IMG/VR virus record: IMGVR_UViG_3300042868_002001
Location: 1-24,907 of that record
Origin: a virus
Length of the DNA: 24,907 bases
Reading direction: 5' to 3' (one strand)
Positions 1,171 through 24,145 of this stretch are shown here, one piece after another. Made by a program: the position numbers and the translations under genes. Every line of letters begins with the position of its first letter. Within the stretch, counting starts at the first letter, position 1. Below the pieces are notes generated by a model that searched no databases, was not told the DNA's origin, and saw nothing but the letters and a program-made list of their open reading frames with translations.

Positions 1171-4100
1171 ATGGCAACAACAGTCGGGCAACTAACAATC
1201 GAGATGGCGGCTAACATTGTTCGCCTCCAACAAGATTTAGATAAAGCCAAGAACTCTGTTTCCTCTGCAATGTCCTCAATTCAAAAGTCGGCAAGCATGG
1301 CGGCTTCTGCATTGGGTGCGATTGGAGTTGGCTTATCTGTTGCGGCTTTTACTGGATGGATTAAAAGCGCGATTGATGCCGCTGATGAAACCAATAAGAT
1401 GGCACAGAAGATTGGTGTCGCTGTCAAAGATGTAGCAGGGCTTCAGCTTGCCTTTAGACAGGCGGGTATCGATAGCGGTGCGCTACAAACAAGCATGAGT
1501 AAATTGTCTGTAGCTATTGCAAACGGAAATGATGCTTTTGTTGCGATGGGAATTAGCACTCGCAATACTGATGGCACACTCAAGTCAACGCGGCAAGTCT
1601 TAGGCGAAGTCGCTGATAAATTTAAATCATATGAAGATGGTGCAAGTAAGACAGCATTGGCTGTTCAGTTGTTTGGCAAAGCGGGTGCTGATTTAATTCC
1701 ATTGCTTAATGCAGGAGCAGACAGCTTAGATCAGTTTGATGAGATGGCTCGTAAGCTAGGTTTAACAATCACAGATGAGACAGCCGCAAGAGCAGAGAAG
1801 TTTAATGACACATTAGATTTGATGGGTCAAGGCTTCAAGGGTATTTCAATGCAAGTGATGGCTGAGTTGTTGCCAACTCTTGAAGGTCTTGCAGATCAAT
1901 TCTTTTCAAGCATGACAGAGGGTGATCGCTTGAAGCGCATTGCCGAAGGCTTGTCTATTGGACTCAAAGGTTTATACATCGCAGTTGTTCTTGTTTATGA
2001 AGCTGTCCAGACAATGGTTGATGGGCTATACACAGCAGGAAAACAAATCTATGCGGTAATGCAAGGTGATTTCAAAGGTGCGATGAAGCTAGGGTCAGAG
2101 TATGCTGATCGCCTGAAAACAAATTGGACTTCTGCATTAGAAGAAGTTGACAAAGCATGGAACGCAAACGGAAGCACAGCAGTTTCAACTATGACTGCTA
2201 TAGCAAAGGCGGCAAAGACAGAAGCTCCTTATGTGAGTGACGCTTCAAAGAAACAAGCTGAAGAATTAAACAAGCTAGCAGAAGCATATAAGAAACTTAT
2301 GCTTTCTGTTGATGAAAAGATTGCAACAAACAAAGCAGAAGTTGATGCTTCAGAAAAGTTAACTGAATCACAAAAGCTAGAAATCAAATACACAGCAGAG
2401 ATTGAAGCAGGAACTTTGAAGCTGACTAAGGCACAGCAAGAGAATTTATTTGCAAAGCTCAAAGTCTTGAGGGCTACCGAAGATGCAATTGCTCTAGGTA
2501 AATTAGAAAAAGAGATTCTTGATGAATCAGCAAAATCTAATCTTGCAGTTTATGACGCATTGATAAAAAAGAATAAAGCAATTGAGGATGAATTAGAAAA
2601 GCAAAAAGATTCTAATGCTGAAATGTTATTGGGTGCTGATGCGCTTGCTCAACTAGCGATTGCAAAATTACGAGATCAAGCAATATCAGCAGATCGTCTT
2701 GCAACGATCATGGAAGAAATCAATCCAGATGTTGCTAAAACTTATCGCGATCAAGCATCAGCATTACGCGCATTGGCAGATGCTAAAGACAAGGGTCTTG
2801 GAATTAAAGCCGCGAAGGATGCACAAGACGCATGGGACAAAGCGGCAAGCTCAATCACAGAAGGATTGACTGATGCCTTGATGCGTGGCTTTGAATCAGG
2901 AAAAGGATTCGTAGATAACATCTTGGACTTTATTAAAAACAAGTTCAAGACAACAGTCGCAGAATTTATCATTCGCCCGATCATGTCGCCAATCGGCAAT
3001 ATGTTTGCAACAATGATGCCGACAGCCGCAGGAGTTGCGAGTGGTGGCGGTGGAATGTTTGGCTCTATTCTTGGCGGTGCAAGCCAGATGGGTTCTTTGT
3101 TCGGAACTGGTGCAAGCGCGACAATGGGCGGTGCAGGGTTCATGGACATGATGGGTGCTTCATCAGCCATGATGGGCAATGGAAGCATGATGGGCGGTAT
3201 GGCTATGGGTGCGGGTGCAGTCATGCCTTATGTCCTAGCGGCGGCGGCTCTTGTCTCTCTTGTCAAATCACTTGATGACTCAGGCACTATGCACGCGGGT
3301 GGAACAGCTACCGCATCTGCAACTGGTGCAAAAGCAACTACAGGCTCAGAACTGAACTTCGTTGTTGAAACAAATAAGCAAATGCAATCAAGCATTGTGA
3401 CAATGGCGGGAAGCATCTCTAGCACATTGAACGGATTGCAACGCGCATTTGGAAAAGCAGAAGAAGTAGTTGTTGGTCTTGGCTTCGCAGATGACTCAAG
3501 CGCAGATGGTGCTTGGGGTGCATTGAAGATTCTTGCAAGTGGTAAGACTCTAGTTGATTGGGCAAGCGGTGTCGACAGATGGCCAGGATTTGAGTTCTCT
3601 GATGGAGAGGCGGGACTCGCAGAATTCACAGCAAAGATAGCCACAGATGTGAAGGGCATGATATCTACACTCGGCTTGCCTGAGTGGGCTTTAGCTATCA
3701 CAAACAATCTGCAAGAGGGCGCGACCTTAGAACAAGTGTTAGCAACCTTAGAGCAAGTGGCTCTCATCAAAGTTCAATTGACAGAAGCAGGAAATGCTTT
3801 GACATTGATGGGTGGTCCATTGGCAGGACTAGCGGCGGCAGGAGATTCCGCTGTCTTAGCAGTTGCAGAGTTGGTTGGCGGCATTGATCAGTTGGTCTTG
3901 AAAGCTCAAGGCTTTATGGCTAACTATTACACAGAGCAAGAGCAAGCGGGTGTTCTTGCATCAAGCCTCACGCAATCACTTGAGGAAGCGGGATTCAGTC
4001 AAGCGCAGATTGCGGCATTGATGACACGCGAGGACTTCAGGGCATTGCTCGAAAGTATTGATATCAGTACAGAGCAAGGTGCTGAACAGTTTGCCGCATT

Positions 4101-4869
4101 GCTTACTGTTCAACAGCAATTTGCAGATGTTCAAACTTATTTAGAATCCCAAGGTGTCACCTTACTTGAGCTTGCAGAAGCCGCACCTCAAGTAGCATTG
4201 TTAACTTTGATTAAAGATCAAGACGCAACAAACGCAAAAACATCTTTAGAAATTGCTAACATCACTTCTGATTCTTTGATATCAATGATTGAACAAGATA
4301 AGACAAATGCAAGTTCAGCATTAGAAGTAGCGACAGAATCTGCTGATTCATTGTTGAAGATTGATACAGGCGTTAAAACAATGATTGATTCTATCAACGC
4401 GCTTGATACAACGATGGAAAGCGGACTAGAAAACATATCTCTTGCCACAAGTTCAGCTATGACTTTGGCAACAGATGCAATAGCATCTGCAAACGCAAGC
4501 GCGATGGCGGCTATTGCGGCGGCTAATCAGATTGCCGCACAATCAAGTTCTATCGCTGTCACACAGAAGTTGGCTACTGGTGGTCAATACAATGGCGGCA
4601 TGGCTCTTGTCGGTGAGCGTGGTCCTGAGCTTATTGATTTGAACACTAGCGGTCGTGTTTATTCTGCAAGCCAAACAGCAAGCATGATTGGCGGAGATGT
4701 TGCGGGTGAGATCAGGGCTTTGCGCGATGAGGTAACTTTGCTAAGATATGAGGCAAGATCAACAGCAGTCAGTTCAGCAAAGATTGCAAGATTGCAAGAT
4801 AACTGGGATGTCCGTGGTCTTACTGTCAGAACAGATGTTGATCAACCTTTGGACACAGTAGCAGTATGA
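1171..4869 (+). CDS. Tape measure protein
   Basis: At 1232 residues this is the largest protein in the window. It should set tail length and be threaded through the tail tube. It has hydrophobic segments near residues 44-60, 267-285 and 683-700, a long Lys/Glu/Ala-rich coiled-coil region around 350-500, and a Gly/Met-rich low-complexity stretch around 620-680. The C-terminal motif VGERGPELI, near residue 1147, is typical of tape measure C-termini. From the usual figure of about 0.15 nm per residue, the tail would be near 180 nm, which fits a long-tailed siphovirus. No lysozyme or peptidase domain is recognisable. The stop overlaps the next start (ATGA). Confidence 0.9.
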   Translation: MATTVGQLTIEMAANIVRLQQDLDKAKNSVSSAMSSIQKSASMAASALGAIGVGLSVAAFTGWIKSAIDAADETNKMAQKIGVAVKDVAGLQLAFRQAGIDSGALQTSMSKLSVAIANGNDAFVAMGISTRNTDGTLKSTRQVLGEVADKFKSYEDGASKTALAVQLFGKAGADLIPLLNAGADSLDQFDEMARKLGLTITDETAARAEKFNDTLDLMGQGFKGISMQVMAELLPTLEGLADQFFSSMTEGDRLKRIAEGLSIGLKGLYIAVVLVYEAVQTMVDGLYTAGKQIYAVMQGDFKGAMKLGSEYADRLKTNWTSALEEVDKAWNANGSTAVSTMTAIAKAAKTEAPYVSDASKKQAEELNKLAEAYKKLMLSVDEKIATNKAEVDASEKLTESQKLEIKYTAEIEAGTLKLTKAQQENLFAKLKVLRATEDAIALGKLEKEILDESAKSNLAVYDALIKKNKAIEDELEKQKDSNAEMLLGADALAQLAIAKLRDQAISADRLATIMEEINPDVAKTYRDQASALRALADAKDKGLGIKAAKDAQDAWDKAASSITEGLTDALMRGFESGKGFVDNILDFIKNKFKTTVAEFIIRPIMSPIGNMFATMMPTAAGVASGGGGMFGSILGGASQMGSLFGTGASATMGGAGFMDMMGASSAMMGNGSMMGGMAMGAGAVMPYVLAAAALVSLVKSLDDSGTMHAGGTATASATGAKATTGSELNFVVETNKQMQSSIVTMAGSISSTLNGLQRAFGKAEEVVVGLGFADDSSADGAWGALKILASGKTLVDWASGVDRWPGFEFSDGEAGLAEFTAKIATDVKGMISTLGLPEWALAITNNLQEGATLEQVLATLEQVALIKVQLTEAGNALTLMGGPLAGLAAAGDSAVLAVAELVGGIDQLVLKAQGFMANYYTEQEQAGVLASSLTQSLEEAGFSQAQIAALMTREDFRALLESIDISTEQGAEQFAALLTVQQQFADVQTYLESQGVTLLELAEAAPQVALLTLIKDQDATNAKTSLEIANITSDSLISMIEQDKTNASSALEVATESADSLLKIDTGVKTMIDSINALDTTMESGLENISLATSSAMTLATDAIASANASAMAAIAAANQIAAQSSSIAVTQKLATGGQYNGGMALVGERGPELIDLNTSGRVYSASQTASMIGGDVAGEIRALRDEVTLLRYEARSTAVSSAKIARLQDNWDVRGLTVRTDVDQPLDTVAV

Positions 4870-10191: not shown

Positions 10192-10691
10192 TGTTTCCAA
10201 TTCCCTTGCCTTGGATAATTGTTGGTGTAATTATTTCTCTCTTCGGAACTTATCAAGTTGGCCATCATTACGGATGGCTTGAGCGCGATAATGACATGAA
10301 GATTGCCATTGCAAAAAAGAATGAGGAATCTAGGGCAACTGAGCAGAAGCTCGGTGAACAACTCAATACCAATGCAACAAAGTTACAGGAGGCAACAAAT
10401 GCCATCACTCAAAAACAGTCTGCCCTTGATCGCGCTATTCGTTCTGGCAGGGTGCGCCTCCCAACCTCAAGTTGTCAGCAAGCCGCCTCAAGTCCCGCCA
10501 TTGCCGCCACAGATAGCAAAGAAACAAGAAGCGAACCTGACAGACAGACTGACACGGCTCCTGATACCGAGCGAGAAACCCTTGTCGCCATCGCAGAAAT
10601 AGTGGCGCAGGGTGACAGAAATACTTTGCAACTGAACTCTTGCATAGATGCTTACAACGAAGTGAGGAATCTTTTAAATGGTAAGTCCTGA
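10191..10691 (+). CDS. Rz: Rz-like inner-membrane spanin subunit
   Basis: This 166-residue protein has an N-terminal membrane anchor (residues 8-27), a charged periplasmic coiled coil (30-85), a Ser/Pro/Thr-rich linker and a C-terminal helix with the motif CIDAYNEVRNLL, as in many Rz-type proteins. Spanins join inner and outer membranes and complete lysis by fusing them. The gene carries a full second gene, Rz1, in the +1 frame (10399-10602), the classic embedded layout. It overlaps the endolysin start by 14 bases. The linker composition (residues 90-125) is probably set by the need to encode the lipoprotein in the other frame. Confidence 0.85.
   Translation: MFPIPLPWIIVGVIISLFGTYQVGHHYGWLERDNDMKIAIAKKNEESRATEQKLGEQLNTNATKLQEATNAITQKQSALDRAIRSGRVRLPTSSCQQAASSPAIAATDSKETRSEPDRQTDTAPDTERETLVAIAEIVAQGDRNTLQLNSCIDAYNEVRNLLNGKS
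10399..10602 (+). CDS. Rz1: Rz1-like outer-membrane spanin lipoprotein, nested in Rz
   Basis: This 67-residue frame lies wholly within Rz in the +1 frame. A perfect AGGAGG (10387-10392) sits six bases before its ATG, strong evidence for independent translation. Residues 1-18 are a signal peptide with lipobox VLAGC, so C19 is the lipidated residue. The mature part is proline-rich (PPQVPPLPPQ), as in known Rz1 proteins. It should sit in the outer membrane and bind the C-terminus of Rz across the periplasm. Confidence 0.88.
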   Translation: MPSLKNSLPLIALFVLAGCASQPQVVSKPPQVPPLPPQIAKKQEANLTDRLTRLLIPSEKPLSPSQK

Positions 10692-11292
10692 ACAATTACG
10701 CCAACTCAAGATTGAACAATCTTTGGCAGAACCATTCAACGAAACATTTGAACGCTTCGGAATCATGTCGGCTGTTCAACAAGCCGCATGGCTTGGACAA
10801 TGTGGCCATGAGTGCAATAATTTTAGAGTGCTTGAAGAAAACCTGAACTATCGTGCGCCAACCTTGCTCAAGTTGTTTCCATTGACAGCAAAGAGAGGAT
10901 GGGGCTTCACGCCTGAATCAGCGGCACAGTATGAGCGTCAGCCAGTTAAGATTGCCAATCGCATTTACGGCTCGCGTATGGGCAACAGGGATGAGGCATC
11001 GGGAGATGGATTCTTGTACCGAGGCTCTGGATTTTTACAATTGACGGGCGCGGCAAATTTTTTCCATGCGGGAAAAGCATTAGGCGAGGACTTCGTTCGC
11101 AATCCTGATTTGGTTCGGACACCGAAATATGCAAGCCTAACCGCAGGATGGTTTTGGCAAACGCACAATTTGAATCAGTACGCTGATAAAGAAGATTGGT
11201 TGATGCTGACAAAAAGAATCAATGGCGGCACGATCGGATTAGAAGATCGCAAGAAGCATATCGCACACGCCATTGAAGTTCTTACTGCTTAA
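10678..11292 (+). CDS. Endolysin, glycoside hydrolase family 19
   Basis: This 204-residue protein matches the phage GH19 (chitinase-like) lysin pattern. It has HECNNFRVLEENLNY near residues 44-58, which contains the expected catalytic glutamates, NRIYGSRMGN near 93-102, and the substrate-groove signature YRGSGFLQLTGAANF near 115-130. GH19 lysins cut the glycan backbone of peptidoglycan. No signal peptide or separate wall-binding domain is seen, so it needs a holin. GAGGAA precedes the ATG. The gene lies after the spanins, unlike the usual holin, endolysin, Rz order. Its stop overlaps the convergent gene below by 11 bases. Confidence 0.9.
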   Translation: MVSPEQLRQLKIEQSLAEPFNETFERFGIMSAVQQAAWLGQCGHECNNFRVLEENLNYRAPTLLKLFPLTAKRGWGFTPESAAQYERQPVKIANRIYGSRMGNRDEASGDGFLYRGSGFLQLTGAANFFHAGKALGEDFVRNPDLVRTPKYASLTAGWFWQTHNLNQYADKEDWLMLTKRINGGTIGLEDRKKHIAHAIEVLTA

Positions 11293-11672: not shown

Positions 11673-11912
11673 TTAGAACGGTACATCGTCATCTTCAAGC
11701 TGTGGCAATCCATCCTCACCTTTAGGGGTATTCAAATATGCCCATCCATTCCACCCCCCCGCATCTGTTAGAGGAGTGCAATCAAGTTTCAGCATCGGTC
11801 CTTTCTTGGTTTCAATAACTGAACCAATCCTCAGATACCGATTTTTATTTGCACCATCCTTGTTAACATAAGTACCTGTTATTACAGATATCTCATAAAT
11901 TGTCTTTGCCAT
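11673..11912 (-). CDS. Small protein with an SSB-type acidic C-terminal tip
   Basis: This 79-residue protein ends in LEDDDVPF, nearly the same as the DDDIPF tip by which bacterial SSB recruits repair and replication proteins. The body is beta-rich (YEISVITGTYVNKDG, YLRIGSVIETKKGPMLKL), compatible with a small single-stranded DNA-binding fold, but it is much shorter than SSB (about 110-180 residues) and I cannot prove an OB fold. It overlaps the exonuclease gene by 20 bases and lies in one block with ERF, so a role in single-strand recombination is likely. Similar short proteins are common in aquatic phages. Confidence 0.65.
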   Translation of the reverse strand: MAKTIYEISVITGTYVNKDGANKNRYLRIGSVIETKKGPMLKLDCTPLTDAGGWNGWAYLNTPKGEDGLPQLEDDDVPF

Positions 11913-12522
11913 TATTTTCTTTCAGTTGGTTAAGGGTAGTTAGCGTTACATCAACTTCTGCCAAAAATAGCAGAACTTCTGTTTCTAACTTATTTGCATA
12001 TTCGGCATCGTATGGATAACGCTGTACGAACATTTGCAACTCTTGAGGTAGCCTTGGGTCAAAGCTAATGAAATCGCACCACTTGCGACCAGTACAAATC
12101 ATTTGCCAAGTCATCTGAGCTTTGTGCTTATTTGGAATCTTGCCATTCAGCAGGGTTTCAATATGCGTATTGGTCTGTGGGCATTTGATTTCAATCAAAC
12201 CATCTTGGCCAACCAAACCATCAGGCGAAGCCCCTGCCATCAAAGTCGGGTGCTGAACAAATCCAACCTCATCAACTAAGACGCTGTTCTTCATCTCATA
12301 AGCCGCCCTAGCAAGTGGCTCGGTCTCTGTGCCGTGAGCCATTGCAGGAGTGCTAAATGACTCTGCCGCCTTGCCTGTTAAGCGTTCGCATACAAGCTGT
12401 GCCAAGTAGTTGTCGCGACTCGCGGCATATCCTGTTTTGGTACGAGCCACAATGTCTTGAACCTTACTGGCAGTCACCCGCCCAAGACGCGCGGCAAACC
12501 ATTCTTCTGTGCCTTGTTCCAT
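11893..12522 (-). CDS. YqaJ/lambda-type recombination exonuclease
   Basis: This 209-residue protein matches the YqaJ viral recombinase family: EEWFAARLGRVTASK (residues 6-20), HGTETEPLAR (63-72), and the catalytic core ASPDGLV then IEIKCP with D101, E111 and K113. These form the PD-(D/E)xK metal site. The enzyme degrades one strand from double-stranded ends, leaving single strands for the annealing protein encoded just upstream in transcription order. AAGGA precedes the ATG. The exonuclease, ERF and SSB-tip protein form a self-contained annealing recombination set like Red or RecET. The length is normal for the family. Confidence 0.92.
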   Translation of the reverse strand: MEQGTEEWFAARLGRVTASKVQDIVARTKTGYAASRDNYLAQLVCERLTGKAAESFSTPAMAHGTETEPLARAAYEMKNSVLVDEVGFVQHPTLMAGASPDGLVGQDGLIEIKCPQTNTHIETLLNGKIPNKHKAQMTWQMICTGRKWCDFISFDPRLPQELQMFVQRYPYDAEYANKLETEVLLFLAEVDVTLTTLNQLKENNGKDNL

Positions 12523-12525
12523 AAT

Positions 12526-13107
12526 TTATCCTTGGCTTTCTGAAAGAGCTTTTTTACGAGCATCTTTTTTTGCAATGATTCTTTTCTGCAACTCTGTGTC
12601 GCCATTGGCAAACTGATAAGCCAATGTGAAAGATGCTTTCAGCGCATCTGCATCTGAGGCGGCATCAATGGCGGCAAAGTGGTCAGCCATGACAGATTCA
12701 TCAATCGTTGGCTTCTTGCTCCTTGAGGCGGCATTTCCGTCATCGTCTTCTGGTGCGATTCCGCAAGCCGCCATGAGCGAACCCCTGCGAGCATATGTAA
12801 GCGCGCTCATGTAGCCCTGTGGGTCTGTTTTGGCGGCAGGGAAATACAGGCGACCGCAGTTGAGAGACTCGCCTGATTCATGCAGAAACATTGTTTCCAC
12901 AATTACGCCATCAGGATGTTCGTGATTCAGTTGGATCAGCGAGATCCCATTGTTATTCAGCGCATCAAGAACAGCATCTACGCATGATGCCAAATCTGCG
13001 TAGCGTGATATTTTATTGCCCTTTGAAAAAAATTCGTTTGTTGAATTTTTGATGATTGGCGAATAAGCCTTTTGTGCTTTGACTAAAGCTGTTGCGATTT
13101 GTTTCAT
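12526..13107 (-). CDS. erf: ERF-family single-strand annealing protein
   Basis: This 193-residue protein shows the ERF signature: YADLASCVDAVLDALNNNGI (residues 36-55), MFLHESGE (73-80), then DPQGYMSALTYARRGSLMAA (95-114) and the acidic EDDDGNAA (120-127). ERF proteins form rings that anneal complementary single strands in phage recombination and genome circularisation. The C-terminal 60 residues are a charged helical tail. The gene sits three bases before the exonuclease gene on the minus strand, and the pair should act together. Its start overlaps the stop of the preceding small gene. Confidence 0.92.
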   Translation of the reverse strand: MKQIATALVKAQKAYSPIIKNSTNEFFSKGNKISRYADLASCVDAVLDALNNNGISLIQLNHEHPDGVIVETMFLHESGESLNCGRLYFPAAKTDPQGYMSALTYARRGSLMAACGIAPEDDDGNAASRSKKPTIDESVMADHFAAIDAASDADALKASFTLAYQFANGDTELQKRIIAKKDARKKALSESQG

Positions 13108-20457: not shown

Positions 20458-20562
20458 GGGGGGGGGTGGGGGTCAGGCATACAGAAAAAAAAATTAGGGG
20501 GTGTCTTGTTTGGGAATATATAAGGTATATGCTAAGATTCCTTATCTAATCAGAAGGTGTAT
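20458..20562 (+). promoter_or_regulatory. G-tract and candidate promoter before the modification operon
   Basis: The gap begins with nine G, one T and five G (20458-20472), and another run of five G lies near 20497, so a G-quadruplex in the non-template strand is possible. A sigma70-type promoter candidate follows: TTGTTT (20506-20511), a 16-base spacer and TATGCT (20528-20533), with a start near 20540. AGAAGG precedes the next ATG. This is the largest gap in the right block and the likely start of a separate transcript. Confidence 0.5.
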
Positions 20563-21168
20563 ATGACAAACAAATTGGCAATCAAATATAAGACAACTGA
20601 ACAGTTGATTCCTTATGCACTCAACAGCCGCACACACTCTGAATCGCAAATTGCACAATTAGCCGCAAGTATCCGTGAGTTCGGGTTCACAAACCCTGTC
20701 CTGTTGGATGGCGAGAATGGCATCTTGGCAGGGCATGGTCGGGTAATGGCGGCAAGATTGTTGAAGTTGGAAAGCGTTCCGACTATTGAAATTTCACATC
20801 TGACAGCAACTCAGAAAAAGGCTTATGTCATTGCTGACAACAAATTGGCTCTGAATGCAGGGTGGGACATGGATATTCTTGGCCTTGAAATTGAAGAATT
20901 GAAAAATTGTGACTTTGAAATTGAATTGCTCGGTTTTGATGAATCAGAACTGGCTAAAAGCGCAATTGATTATTCTGTCCTTGATGATGAGGATGTTGAT
21001 GACAAGATTCAAGACATGGCTGATGGTGTCAGAAAGGCAATACAAATTGAATTTGAGCCTGAACACTATTCTGAAGCGCAAGAACTGGTGAAATATTGGC
21101 GCGGTCAGAACGCTTATGTCGGATACATGATCTTGGATTTCCTGCGAAAACAAAAAGATAAAGTTTGA
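20563..21168 (+). CDS. ParB-like nuclease domain protein
   Basis: The ATG at 20563 has AAGG five bases upstream and gives 201 residues; a GTG at 20557 overlaps that site. Residues 12-100 are a ParB/sulfiredoxin-like domain: YALNSRTHSESQIAQLAASI, VLLDGENGILAGHGRVMAAR with GHGR at 57-60, then YVIADNKLALNAGWD. In phages this domain is often fused to a DNA methyltransferase, but here the protein ends after a 100-residue acidic tail with no methyltransferase motif. It may bind or nick DNA and guide the modification enzymes encoded downstream, or act in packaging. It starts the cassette. Confidence 0.8.
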   Translation: MTNKLAIKYKTTEQLIPYALNSRTHSESQIAQLAASIREFGFTNPVLLDGENGILAGHGRVMAARLLKLESVPTIEISHLTATQKKAYVIADNKLALNAGWDMDILGLEIEELKNCDFEIELLGFDESELAKSAIDYSVLDDEDVDDKIQDMADGVRKAIQIEFEPEHYSEAQELVKYWRGQNAYVGYMILDFLRKQKDKV

Positions 21169-21169
21169 A

Positions 21170-21691
21170 ATGAAAATCTTTGTAACCATTGGCGGCTCTG
21201 GTACTAGGATGAAGGAAATCAGCCCTGTTGATAAACAATTTATTTATTACAGAGAAAAACGCATCATTGAGCATATCTTCAAAATTTTCCCATACGCAAA
21301 TTTGTTAGGTGAGAATAAAACAAATAGCAGGAAAGATACGCTGACAGAAATAGCGCATGAGCAAGATTGTTTGATAGTTGACTGTGACATTATTCCTTTC
21401 GGCTTGCCAGAATTGAATTTTGACGGCGACACACTATTTTTCTTCAAGAGCGATAAGCCTAAATACGGCTCAATTCTGATTGAAGATTCGCGATTGATTG
21501 CTGTAAATGAAAAAGACAGCATTTCAAAAAATAAATGTAGCGGAATTTATTTTGTGAAATCCATGTCTAACTTATTAGAAAACATGAGAGATGAAAACAG
21601 CTTGGCATCTGGAATGATTGGCGCGAAAGTTATTCAAGAAAACACATTCATCAAACTAGGTGATGTGGAAGATTATTACGAGGCACTATGA
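21170..21691 (+). CDS. Compact nucleotidyltransferase (GT-A fold)
   Basis: This 173-residue protein begins MKIFVTIGGSGTRMKEISPV, the NTP-binding signature GGSGTR of sugar-phosphate nucleotidyl- or cytidylyltransferases. IVDCDIIPFG (69-78) carries the metal-binding aspartates, and IKLGDVEDYYEAL closes the fold. It is shorter than usual sugar nucleotidyltransferases (about 230-300 residues). It should activate a phosphorylated sugar or alcohol as NDP-X. The next gene has a choline-kinase-like domain, so a LicC-like CDP-activation step is one option and NDP-sugar formation another. It overlaps the next gene by four bases and looks AT-rich. Confidence 0.75.
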   Translation: MKIFVTIGGSGTRMKEISPVDKQFIYYREKRIIEHIFKIFPYANLLGENKTNSRKDTLTEIAHEQDCLIVDCDIIPFGLPELNFDGDTLFFFKSDKPKYGSILIEDSRLIAVNEKDSISKNKCSGIYFVKSMSNLLENMRDENSLASGMIGAKVIQENTFIKLGDVEDYYEAL

Positions 21692-22626
21692 TCGTTGTTG
21701 TTGATTTTGATGGGACATTGGCAATTGGACATACGCGCATCATGGACAGGATGCCCAATCACGCGCTAATCAAACGCTTGCAAGATTTGAAAAGCACAAT
21801 CAATCCAATAATCAAAGTCGTTACAGCGCGTGGCTCAAGATTCGGCTTGTCAGAGAGCCAGAAGATTGAAAAATATCATAAAGATATCAAAACTTGGCTA
21901 AATTTGCACAATGTGCCGCATGATTGCATTTCTTTCAACAAAGAATATGGCGCGATTTACATTGATGACATGACTGTCAGCCAAGACGCTGATTTTTCAA
22001 GCCTCTTGAGTCCATTCACTAAAAATAAGCTAATCTTCACAGACAGCACAGTAATCAAGAAAACTGTGAATGCAGAATTGGAATACGCTTGGTATAAGGC
22101 GGCAGATAGCATCGTACAGACACCGAGAATATTATTCTGCAACGATGAGATGATCATTCTTGATAGAGTAAAAGAACACAGGAAGCCGACAGCGCATGAA
22201 ATTATTGATTTGATTGAGTCGTACAAGAATAAATCAATCAAAAATTATTCTTTTGACAGCTACAAGCGAAATTTGCCAAGAATTAGATACGCGACAGCCA
22301 AAGTGAAGACCATCATTGATGGACTAGATGAACATGAGCCATCTTTCTTTCATGGCGATCTTTCAACAACTAACATTCTTGTGAAAGATGGCAAGATTTA
22401 CAGCATCGATCCGAACTACAAAGGCATTTTTGGAAGCTATCTGACGGATGCAGGAAAGGCTTATTTCAGTCTGCTTGCATACGAACAAAGTTATTCACAG
22501 GCAAAAATAATTTCAGATAAGTATGGCCAAGATGTAATCAAGTATGCCATCGCAGAAGGATTGCGGGTTTGCAAATACAACAGCAAATACATTTCTGTTG
22601 TTAACAACATGACGGATTTGATATGA
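21688..22626 (+). CDS. Fusion of HAD phosphatase and choline-kinase/APH-like kinase
   Basis: This 312-residue protein joins two domains. Residues 1-110 are a HAD phosphatase: VVDFDGTLA with D6 and D8, VVTARGS with T46, and YIDDM with D93/D94. Residues 115-312 are an aminoglycoside/choline kinase-like domain with the catalytic loop FFHGDLSTTNIL (D224, N229) and the metal motif YSIDPNY (D241); its N-lobe is short. One chain may therefore phosphorylate a small substrate and remove phosphate from another. With the nucleotidyltransferase before it and the glycosyltransferase after it (4-base overlaps), it probably makes the activated group for base modification. Cell-surface modification is the alternative. 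Confidence 0.75.
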   Translation: MIVVVDFDGTLAIGHTRIMDRMPNHALIKRLQDLKSTINPIIKVVTARGSRFGLSESQKIEKYHKDIKTWLNLHNVPHDCISFNKEYGAIYIDDMTVSQDADFSSLLSPFTKNKLIFTDSTVIKKTVNAELEYAWYKAADSIVQTPRILFCNDEMIILDRVKEHRKPTAHEIIDLIESYKNKSIKNYSFDSYKRNLPRIRYATAKVKTIIDGLDEHEPSFFHGDLSTTNILVKDGKIYSIDPNYKGIFGSYLTDAGKAYFSLLAYEQSYSQAKIISDKYGQDVIKYAIAEGLRVCKYNSKYISVVNNMTDLI

Positions 22627-23351
22627 AGATTGCAATACCAACCCATCGGAGGTCAGATTCAATAACCAAACTTACTTTGAGTTTGCTATCTGATTTTGAT
22701 AAGAAAGATATTTATTTATTCATAAGCGATGAGCAAGATATGACTCTGTACAAGCAAATTTGTCCAGAGTACAACCTTGTTTTATGCGAGACAGATAATG
22801 CAACTGATAAATTTAATTACATCCAAAATTATTTTGATGTAGGAGTGTTTGTAATTGTCATTGAGGATGACATCAAGCATATACAGTCTTTGATGACAAA
22901 GGATTTGAAGAAGCTCTTTGGGTTCATAATAAATTATTGCAACAATAAACAAATCAATTCTTTCGGTGTCTATCCAAGCTCAAACAAATTTTTTATGAGT
23001 AAGACTATAGATATTGGAGCGACATACATCGTTGCTAATCTTTTTGGATTCAAATCAACAAAAGACCATCGTGTTCTTTGCCAACTTAAAACAAAGACAG
23101 ATTATGAAAGAAGCGTCAAGTTCTATAAACACATGGGGAATATTGCGCGTTTCAATTTCATATCTTGCCTGACAAACAATTACACCAATAAAGGTGGAAT
23201 GCAGGAAATCGCAGATAGAGCGAGCCTTGAAAGGCAAGCATCACTCATGCTGTGCAAGTTATATCCTGACATTTTTTCTATCAATGAGAATAGAAAATCC
23301 AAATACACAGAGATTCAAATGGCCAAGAATGTTGTGAAAGAACAGCTATGA
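22623..23351 (+). CDS. GT-A glycosyltransferase, TET/JBP-associated type
   Basis: This 242-residue protein starts with a GT-A strand (MKIAIPTHRRSDSITKLTLS) and has VIVIEDDIKHI with E81-D82-D83 in the place of the DxD metal motif, then KTDYERSVKFYKHMGNIARF (from 158) and NNYTNKGGMQ, which look like acceptor-side and late catalytic motifs. Glycosyltransferases of this general type have been reported next to TET/JBP genes in phages. The ATGA overlap with the dioxygenase gene suggests coupled translation. The likely acceptor is a hydroxymethyl pyrimidine in DNA. Acting on a host surface glycan is less likely, as there is no membrane segment. The gene looks very AT-rich. Confidence 0.75.
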   Translation: MKIAIPTHRRSDSITKLTLSLLSDFDKKDIYLFISDEQDMTLYKQICPEYNLVLCETDNATDKFNYIQNYFDVGVFVIVIEDDIKHIQSLMTKDLKKLFGFIINYCNNKQINSFGVYPSSNKFFMSKTIDIGATYIVANLFGFKSTKDHRVLCQLKTKTDYERSVKFYKHMGNIARFNFISCLTNNYTNKGGMQEIADRASLERQASLMLCKLYPDIFSINENRKSKYTEIQMAKNVVKEQL

Positions 23352-24145
23352 ACTATGTAGAACTCAAGCAACTCAAGCACAGCATAAAGATTGGAGATGT
23401 ATGCGGTGATATTGAGCCAAATGTCACAGAGGACACAATATTCTTGTCAGACGATAAGATTGTTGGCTTCTATATCAAGGAGATGACAGGGCGAGTCAAA
23501 CAGCTTGCTGATGTTGCCAATGCTGAGTTCCTTTCTGACAGAGTGCCAAAGTCTTTCATGGACAGGAAGAAGCCAATGGGTCAGGATGAGAATGGCAAGA
23601 ATAAGTATCATATCATCCGGCAATACAGCACAATCCTTGGATCAATAGCACCCAAGCCACATATGAAGAGGGTGTATCCTGCGATCTCTAGCGTACATCA
23701 GGTTAAGTCAGCGCAGACATTTGTCAAGGCCATGCTCCTGCTATGCAAAGAATCAGAGAAGCTGATGCTAGAGATTGCTCCAGAGCTTTATGAAACGCAA
23801 AAAAGAATCATCACAGAGCAAGTCCCGCCTGAATTCCGCTTCGGAGAATTGTTCACATCCAGTATCAGCAACTTCAATATCTCTGCACCTTTCCATAGAG
23901 ATGCCGCTAACCTTGAAGGATGCGTCAATGTTATTATTGCCAAGAAGAAGAACGCGAGAGGTGGCAATACGACTGTGCCTGACTATGGGGCAACTGTTGA
24001 CAGCAGGGACAATTCAATGTTGGTGTATCCTGCATGGCGTAATGTCCATGGAGTTACCCCCATCCATCCAATAGTTGAAGGTGGATACAGGAACTCTTTG
24101 GTGTTCTATCCGCTGAAAGCATTTGCCAACCATTGGAAACAATAG
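23348..24145 (+). CDS. TET/JBP-family Fe(II)/2-oxoglutarate dioxygenase
   Basis: This 265-residue protein has the TET/JBP core in its C-terminal half: SNFNISAPFHRDAANLEG with the HxD iron ligands H183 and D185, GGNTTVPDYG (205-214), a turn with D218/D221, VHGVTP with the third iron ligand H234, and YRNSLVFY with R248 for 2-oxoglutarate. In eukaryotes TET oxidises 5-methylcytosine and JBP hydroxylates thymine; phage members hydroxylate 5-methylcytosine as the first step to hypermodified bases. The N-terminal half is phage-specific. No cytosine C5-methyltransferase is in the window, so it must lie elsewhere or thymine is the target. Composition looks richer in GC than the three genes before it. 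Confidence 0.85.
   Translation: MNYVELKQLKHSIKIGDVCGDIEPNVTEDTIFLSDDKIVGFYIKEMTGRVKQLADVANAEFLSDRVPKSFMDRKKPMGQDENGKNKYHIIRQYSTILGSIAPKPHMKRVYPAISSVHQVKSAQTFVKAMLLLCKESEKLMLEIAPELYETQKRIITEQVPPEFRFGELFTSSISNFNISAPFHRDAANLEGCVNVIIAKKKNARGGNTTVPDYGATVDSRDNSMLVYPAWRNVHGVTPIHPIVEGGYRNSLVFYPLKAFANHWKQ

Follow-up and report, generated by a model that had tools for sequence, protein, structure and literature searches.

A HAD phosphatase-kinase fusion in a phage TET/JBP cassette, with a predicted role in sugar activation for DNA modification

The question raised by this locus is why a phage should encode a phosphatase and a kinase on a single polypeptide chain, beside a nucleotidyltransferase. The chain is encoded in a virus stretch of 24,907 nt (IMGVR_UViG_3300042868_002001), covering positions 1 to 24,907 of this IMG/VR record and termed here the window; the positions of its features are window coordinates. 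The first-pass annotation had described a HAD phosphatase fused to a choline-kinase-like domain, both with intact sites, and had proposed that their 'opposing activities' serve a channelled synthesis of an activated phospho-compound.

The HAD-kinase gene and its operon

The window is an otherwise ordinary tailed phage fragment, with tape measure, endolysin, RecE-like exonuclease and Erf-like annealing genes in the regions 1171-4869, 10678-11292 and 11893-13107. The genes and domains of interest are the following:

20557..21168, + strand: ParB-like protein, 203 aa from GTG (Pfam ParB_N, E 1.6e-4; phrog_15396, 2.7e-54)
21170..21691, + strand: short NTP-transferase-like nucleotidyltransferase (NTase), 173 aa, with GGSGTRM and DCD motifs (phrog_3980, 3.7e-8)
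21688..22626, + strand: HAD phosphatase-kinase fusion (HAD-kinase, P0001), 312 aa (motifs, alignment, AlphaFold2, Foldseek, profile comparison)
21688..22017, + strand: minimal HAD domain, approximately residues 1-110 (TIGR01689, 2.8e-9; family profile; motifs D6, D8, T46, K85, D93/D94)
22024..22623, + strand: compact choline-kinase/APH-fold kinase domain, approximately residues 113-312 (K124, E132, H222-G-D224, N229, D241; Foldseek)
22623..23351, + strand: TAGT (TET-associated glycosyltransferase), 242 aa, EDD motif (Pfam PF20691; phrog_842)
23348..24145, + strand: TET/JBP 2OG-Fe(II) dioxygenase, 265 aa, with HRD, distal H and YRN (Pfam PF12851; phrog_6059, 3.7e-50)

The ATG start of the HAD-kinase lies inside the stop codon of the upstream NTase ORF (an ATGA overlap), and the junctions at 22623 and 23348 are of the same type. 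The three overlaps indicate a single block of genes, from NTase through HAD-kinase and TAGT to TET, whose translation is coupled. TAGT and TET/JBP are adjacent and both score above the curated Pfam cut-offs (28.7 bits for PF20691, cut-off 27.5; 37.9 bits for PF12851, cut-off 34.9), as in the known TET/JBP-TAGT phage operons, to which the window adds sugar-activation genes of its own. TAGT also matched phrog_842, beta-glucosyl-HMC-alpha-glucosyltransferase (1.2e-8). The ParB-like gene starts with GTG in the window, while an ATG two codons downstream is the start in relatives. The ParB-like proteins of the window and of cassette relatives share a conserved C-terminal tail (KKAIQIEFE...WR...Y.GG.IL..L..EK.K); a targeting or nuclease role for them is possible.

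The HAD-kinase contains the DxD nucleophile motif, the motif II Thr, the motif III Lys and the motif IV acidic pair of the HAD superfamily (D6/D8 in DFDGT, T46, K85 and D93/D94), as well as the fold, ATP-site Lys, HGD...N loop and metal-binding Asp of choline-kinase/APH-like kinases (K124, H222-G-D224, N229 and I240-D241-P). The residues named in the first-pass annotation were found at the positions given there, and the catalytic residues of the two domains are invariant or nearly so in a family alignment of 46 rows (homologues 21-93% identical to the window protein; one row truncated at its start). T46, R48, K85, Y91, D93, D94, K124, H222, G223, D224, N229, D241, D254 and K257 are invariant in this alignment, and D6, D8 and T10 are conserved in at least 90% of it.

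Since P0001 alone does not reach the curated HAD and APH cut-offs of Pfam and NCBIfam, the assignment of the two domains relies on profiles, motifs and fold. The match to the NCBIfam EcbF-BcbF model reached 37 bits (curated cut-off, 162). Judged by sequence, the HAD domain is thus related to the EcbF/BcbF subfamily and is not a member of it; it aligns end to end with these capsule phosphatases (TIGR01689; PDB 1xpj), but is fused to a kinase and lies in a phage DNA-modification context. Pfam APH (PF01636) gave 12.1 bits against a gathering cut-off of 23.2, and the Pfam scan found no match of P0001 to PF01633 (choline/ethanolamine kinase). Comparison of the family profile with PDB retrieved the HAD structures 1xpj (E 3.6e-32) and 9iqw (an RB69-type HAD, 1.9e-17), with weak matches to choline kinase and methylthioribose kinase. 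The AlphaFold2 model built from the 46-row alignment, which replaced an earlier one from 12 rows (pLDDT 72), had a pLDDT of 93.7 and a pTM of 0.85. In Foldseek searches of PDB, its kinase domain best matched 3dxq, of the choline/ethanolamine kinase family (E 1.9e-7), followed by LicA (9.6e-7) and also APHs. Profiles, motifs and predicted fold therefore bear out the reading of one chain with a HAD and a choline-kinase-like domain. The dN/dS of the HAD-kinase was 0.10-0.14 against four relatives, and that of its three neighbours 0.02-0.09; all are under purifying selection. Conservation, fold and dN/dS together rule out chance motif matches.

A phosphatase joined to a kinase might also repair nucleic acids in the manner of polynucleotide kinase-phosphatase (PNKP), and PNKP-phosphatase-type HAD profiles do match weakly (phrog_415; HAD_PNKP for the Enterococcus phage 9183 relative). 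However, the Foldseek results place the kinase in the choline-kinase/APH fold, not in the P-loop fold of PNKP, which rules out that identity, and the nucleotidyltransferase partner is constant; a repair function is very improbable. Least probable of all, to the point of being hardly credible, is a phosphatase joined to a protein kinase or to an antibiotic phosphotransferase: the weak matches to RIO1, Bud32 and APH profiles cover only catalytic-loop stretches and fall under the cut-offs, and the gene context is that of sugar activation.

Relation to the RB69-type set

In Yersinia phage TG1, RB69, Thanatos and Enterococcus phage 9183, the NTase is fused to the kinase, and the HAD is encoded by a separate gene next to this fusion. 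The RB69/Thanatos-type set (RB69 ORF053_52c and TH1_060, phrog_4098, with the HAD protein RB69 ORF051c, phrog_1238; PDB 9iqw) comprises the same three domain families as the window. When window-type and RB69-type proteins were compared with hhalign, the kinases gave a probability of 97.6% (E 3.5e-12), the HAD domains 99.5% (1.8e-22) and the NTases 97.3% (2.4e-11), against 0.2% for swapped, mismatched domains. By these profile comparisons, all three domains are homologous to the RB69-type sugar-activation set.

The wiring differs. In the RB69-type set the kinase is fused to the NTase and the HAD is separate, whereas in the window the kinase is fused to the HAD and the NTase is short and separate. 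A TS-like enzyme acts on the base in the former, while the window has TET/JBP oxidation and a TAGT transferase. RB69 also has a SIS isomerase nearby; none was found on the window, and among 27 records surveyed only RB69 and one large phage had it, which rules out this isomerase as a constant partner.

The two arrangements are linked by a relative (L026:4139-6004) in which NTase, HAD and kinase form one 621-aa chain, located at exactly the corresponding place, with ParB on one side and TAGT-TET on the other. The window NTase corresponds to residues 1-240 of this triple fusion, and parts of the chain matched phrog_3980 (1e-44), phrog_1238 (1e-18) and the RB69-type phrog_4098 (5e-19). The occurrence of the same three catalytic domains as NTase plus HAD-kinase, NTase-kinase plus HAD, and NTase-HAD-kinase points to a single pathway. 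In the HAD-kinase, an enzyme set associated with the sugar-modified DNA of T4-related phages is fused and wired in a new way, within a TET/JBP cassette. A literature search found no paper on the fusion; key subscription papers lay outside its coverage, and an earlier mention is possible.

In Foldseek searches of viral models, the best match of the HAD-kinase was a 635-aa Indivirus protein (397 columns aligned), with RB69ORF052c at 3.4e-6. This protein (BFVD A0A1V0SE67, from the eukaryote-infecting giant virus Indivirus ILV1) is named nucleotidyl transferase; on the modelled structures, it is likely the same NTase-HAD-kinase triple fusion outside phages.

RB69-type and Thanatos-type sets occur in phages with pentose-modified cytosine (PMC6024577, PMC12838424, PMC13390438). 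The RB69 genes have been put forward as candidates for the synthesis of activated arabinose (PMC6024577). In an RB69-related phage the modification has been re-read as arabinose directly on C5 of cytosine, with an uncharacterised precursor pathway (PMC13390438). In Thanatos, TH1_063 was assayed and is a UDP-xylose pyrophosphorylase, while the NTase-kinase TH1_060 is essential for normal propagation, its function being unresolved (PMC12838424). The phrog_1238 family (RB69 ORF051c and relatives) is named 'phosphoheptose isomerase' in PHROG and in many phage records; according to its sequence and the solved structures 1xpj and 9iqw, it is a HAD phosphatase family. The 9iqw structure is deposited as 'Capsule biosynthesis protein', and no paper describing it was found.

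Distribution and gene context

A scan of viral contigs that used TAGT rather than the HAD-kinase as its anchor identified 13 contigs (TAGT identity 67-98%). The HAD-kinase was adjacent in all 13, and the gene order ended TAGT-TET wherever complete, TET being missing solely at a contig end. A scan with the family alignment identified 80 loci in five arrangements; the counts are descriptive, since the split between types A and B is partly defined by the presence of TAGT/TET and some loci are near-copies. Type A (17 loci) has NTase and HAD-kinase with TAGT, nearly always also with TET, and a ParB gene lies upstream in 14 of these cassettes. Type B (17 loci) has NTase and HAD-kinase in phage glycan islands, where no modification gene was found within range. 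Type C (ten loci, including L007 and L015) combines more distant HAD-kinases with a HIGH-type, cytidylyltransferase-like nucleotidyltransferase; its members are Agathobaculum phages, L015 and L064-L071, and Agathobaculum phage AB434P2 has the TS-like version. Type D (11 loci) has the single-chain NTase-HAD-kinase, mainly in glycan islands, while type E has the NTase-kinase with a separate HAD, and 22 of its 26 loci include a TET or TS-like gene. Two of the relatives (L067:4329-5585 and L069:10424-11725) encode a protein with a CxxxCxxC-like motif near the HAD-kinase, the HIGH-type nucleotidyltransferase, TAGT and ParB; by eye it appears radical-SAM-like, and might provide a further base-modification step.

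The suggestion that the fusion always accompanies TET/JBP did not hold. Of the 55 fused loci, roughly half carry a TET, TAGT or TS-like gene; roughly half have none of these and belong to phage glycan islands, so that the HAD-kinase is not specific to DNA modification. In the tree of fused proteins, parsimony required at least five changes of context, and the strongly supported branches by themselves require two or more of these; some long branches meet, and the deep joins are unsure. These changes, together with the DNA and glycan settings, suggest that the set is an exchangeable module predicted to make NDP-sugars for both DNA and glycans.

This raises the alternative that in the window, too, the NTase, HAD and kinase domains supply a surface glycan or a virion protein with activated sugar, their position next to TAGT and TET being incidental. 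Types B and D occur in large phages, and their glycan reading is drawn from nearby glycosyltransferases, NeuB, GDP-mannose dehydratase, epimerases and DegT aminotransferase; in addition, the EcbF family takes its name from capsule loci, and an NTase-kinase plus HAD pair also occurs in bacteria. The conserved order up to TAGT-TET in the 13 TAGT-anchored contigs and the separate modification lineages with TS-like genes argue against it, making this reading improbable. The closest HAD-kinase homologues (51-96% identity) all have TAGT beside them and nearly all have TET, which upholds the link to DNA modification that the first-pass annotation had set against an association mainly with capsule clusters.

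In the first searches of plasmid and phage records, the intact fusion was detected in Agathobaculum phages only. A scan of genome contigs for a bacterial origin of the fusion gave one weak, HAD-only match, and a search of 395 genomes, run without a positive control, did not find it.

Predicted pathway and the modified base

From the observed identities of the domains and their intact conserved sites, from the operon and the recurrent linkage of its genes, and from the homology to the RB69-type set, we infer activities, their order, a type of sugar and candidates for the modified base. The HAD-kinase is rather probably a bifunctional sugar-phosphate kinase/phosphatase that, with the NTase, turns a host sugar phosphate into an NDP-sugar that decorates the phage DNA. 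With both sites intact in one chain, and with its gene coupled to those for a nucleotidyltransferase and TET/JBP, the best reading is the one first proposed, that an activated phospho-compound is made. Since TAGT is a glycosyltransferase, the donor should be an NDP-sugar, the making of which needs a sugar-1-phosphate. The choline-kinase-like domain would take a sugar phosphate and phosphorylate it at the anomeric C1-OH, yielding a 1,n-bisphosphate, and the HAD domain would then strip the original terminal phosphate to leave the sugar-1-phosphate. The NTase would convert this into the NDP-sugar, and TAGT would move the sugar onto a pyrimidine hydroxymethylated by TET/JBP. In an alternative order, the HAD domain may first free the sugar and the kinase re-phosphorylate it at C1.

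Anomeric kinases of the APH/choline-kinase fold include methylthioribose kinase, maltokinase and N-acetylhexosamine 1-kinase. In heptose activation (GmhA, HldE or HddA, GmhB, and HldE or HddC), a kinase, a HAD phosphatase and a nucleotidyltransferase act in series to give an NDP-sugar. The predicted design is that of this route (kinase, GmhB-type HAD, nucleotidyltransferase), drawn from other kinase and HAD families; the window differs from it in the kinase fold, the HAD subfamily, the domain fusion and the lack of an isomerase on the contig. The two activities of the chain need not be opposed, as had been supposed, and fit two consecutive steps towards an NDP-sugar. An arabinose-5-phosphate isomerase-like gene beside the RB69 set suggests a sugar phosphate as input, and hence the order kinase, HAD, NTase. 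In type C, where a HIGH-type enzyme replaces the NTase and the HAD-kinase is kept, the HAD-kinase product is most simply the substrate of the nucleotidyltransferase; the link to DNA modification is retained there in nine of the ten loci (TS-like genes in seven, TAGT in two), the remaining locus being truncated.

The same enzymes could be arranged as in the LicA/LicC route, with the HAD domain freeing an alcohol or amino alcohol, the kinase making the phosphoalcohol and the NTase a CDP-alcohol (of the choline, ethanolamine or glycerol type), the group then being put on the DNA or on a DNA sugar. A CDP-amino-alcohol would fit, since the kinase fold is nearest to choline/ethanolamine kinase and LicA, and the RB69-type NTase has LicC, the phosphocholine cytidylyltransferase, as its nearest relative of solved structure; the HIGH-type cytidylyltransferase partners at distant loci also agree with it. 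The window differs from LicA/LicC, however, in its extra HAD domain, its glycosyltransferase partner and its low sequence identity; the coupled transferase is TAGT, a phosphotransferase of the LicD type was not seen, and the phage from which the RB69 counterparts come has arabinosylated DNA (PMC6024577, PMC13390438). CDP-alcohol synthesis is thus unlikely.

No cytosine-C5 methyltransferase (PF00145) was found on 12 cassette records (G000-G011), most of which are fragments, or on the 38-kb Prochlorococcus phage MED4-184, a TET carrier, and ten cassette records had no N4/N6 methyltransferase family. A base-priming methyltransferase of either the N4/N6 or the C5 kind was thus found on none of the cassette records examined, whereas the large TET phage G420, with a type E set, has a PF00145 methyltransferase. 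The oxidised base may therefore not be phage-made 5-methylcytosine, and the substrate of TET could be thymine or a cytosine methylated by the host. Only tentatively can a more far-reaching version be proposed: a self-contained phage system that makes its own non-glucose NDP-sugar with the rewired NTase, HAD and kinase, and links this sugar to a base that TET/JBP has oxidised in situ. For the TET/JBP-TAGT cassette this base could be thymine, as no cytosine-C5 methyltransferase was found on its contigs; a bacterial virus would then have its own equivalent of base J, carrying a new sugar.

Inspection of MED4-184 (L009, 4641-6765) showed that its gene annotated as 'DNA methylase' encodes a ParB_N protein and that the next gene encodes an FkbM-type methyltransferase, which occupies the slot held in the window by NTase, HAD-kinase and TAGT. 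Its 'queuine tRNA-ribosyltransferase' is a Tet_JBP dioxygenase.

The HAD-kinase cassette connects three things reported apart: the TET/JBP-TAGT phage operons, RB69-type arabinosylated DNA, and unexplained phage HAD/kinase genes. It predicts sugars other than glucose on the DNA of many TET phages, which would matter for the evasion of restriction and for new DNA-modifying reagents.
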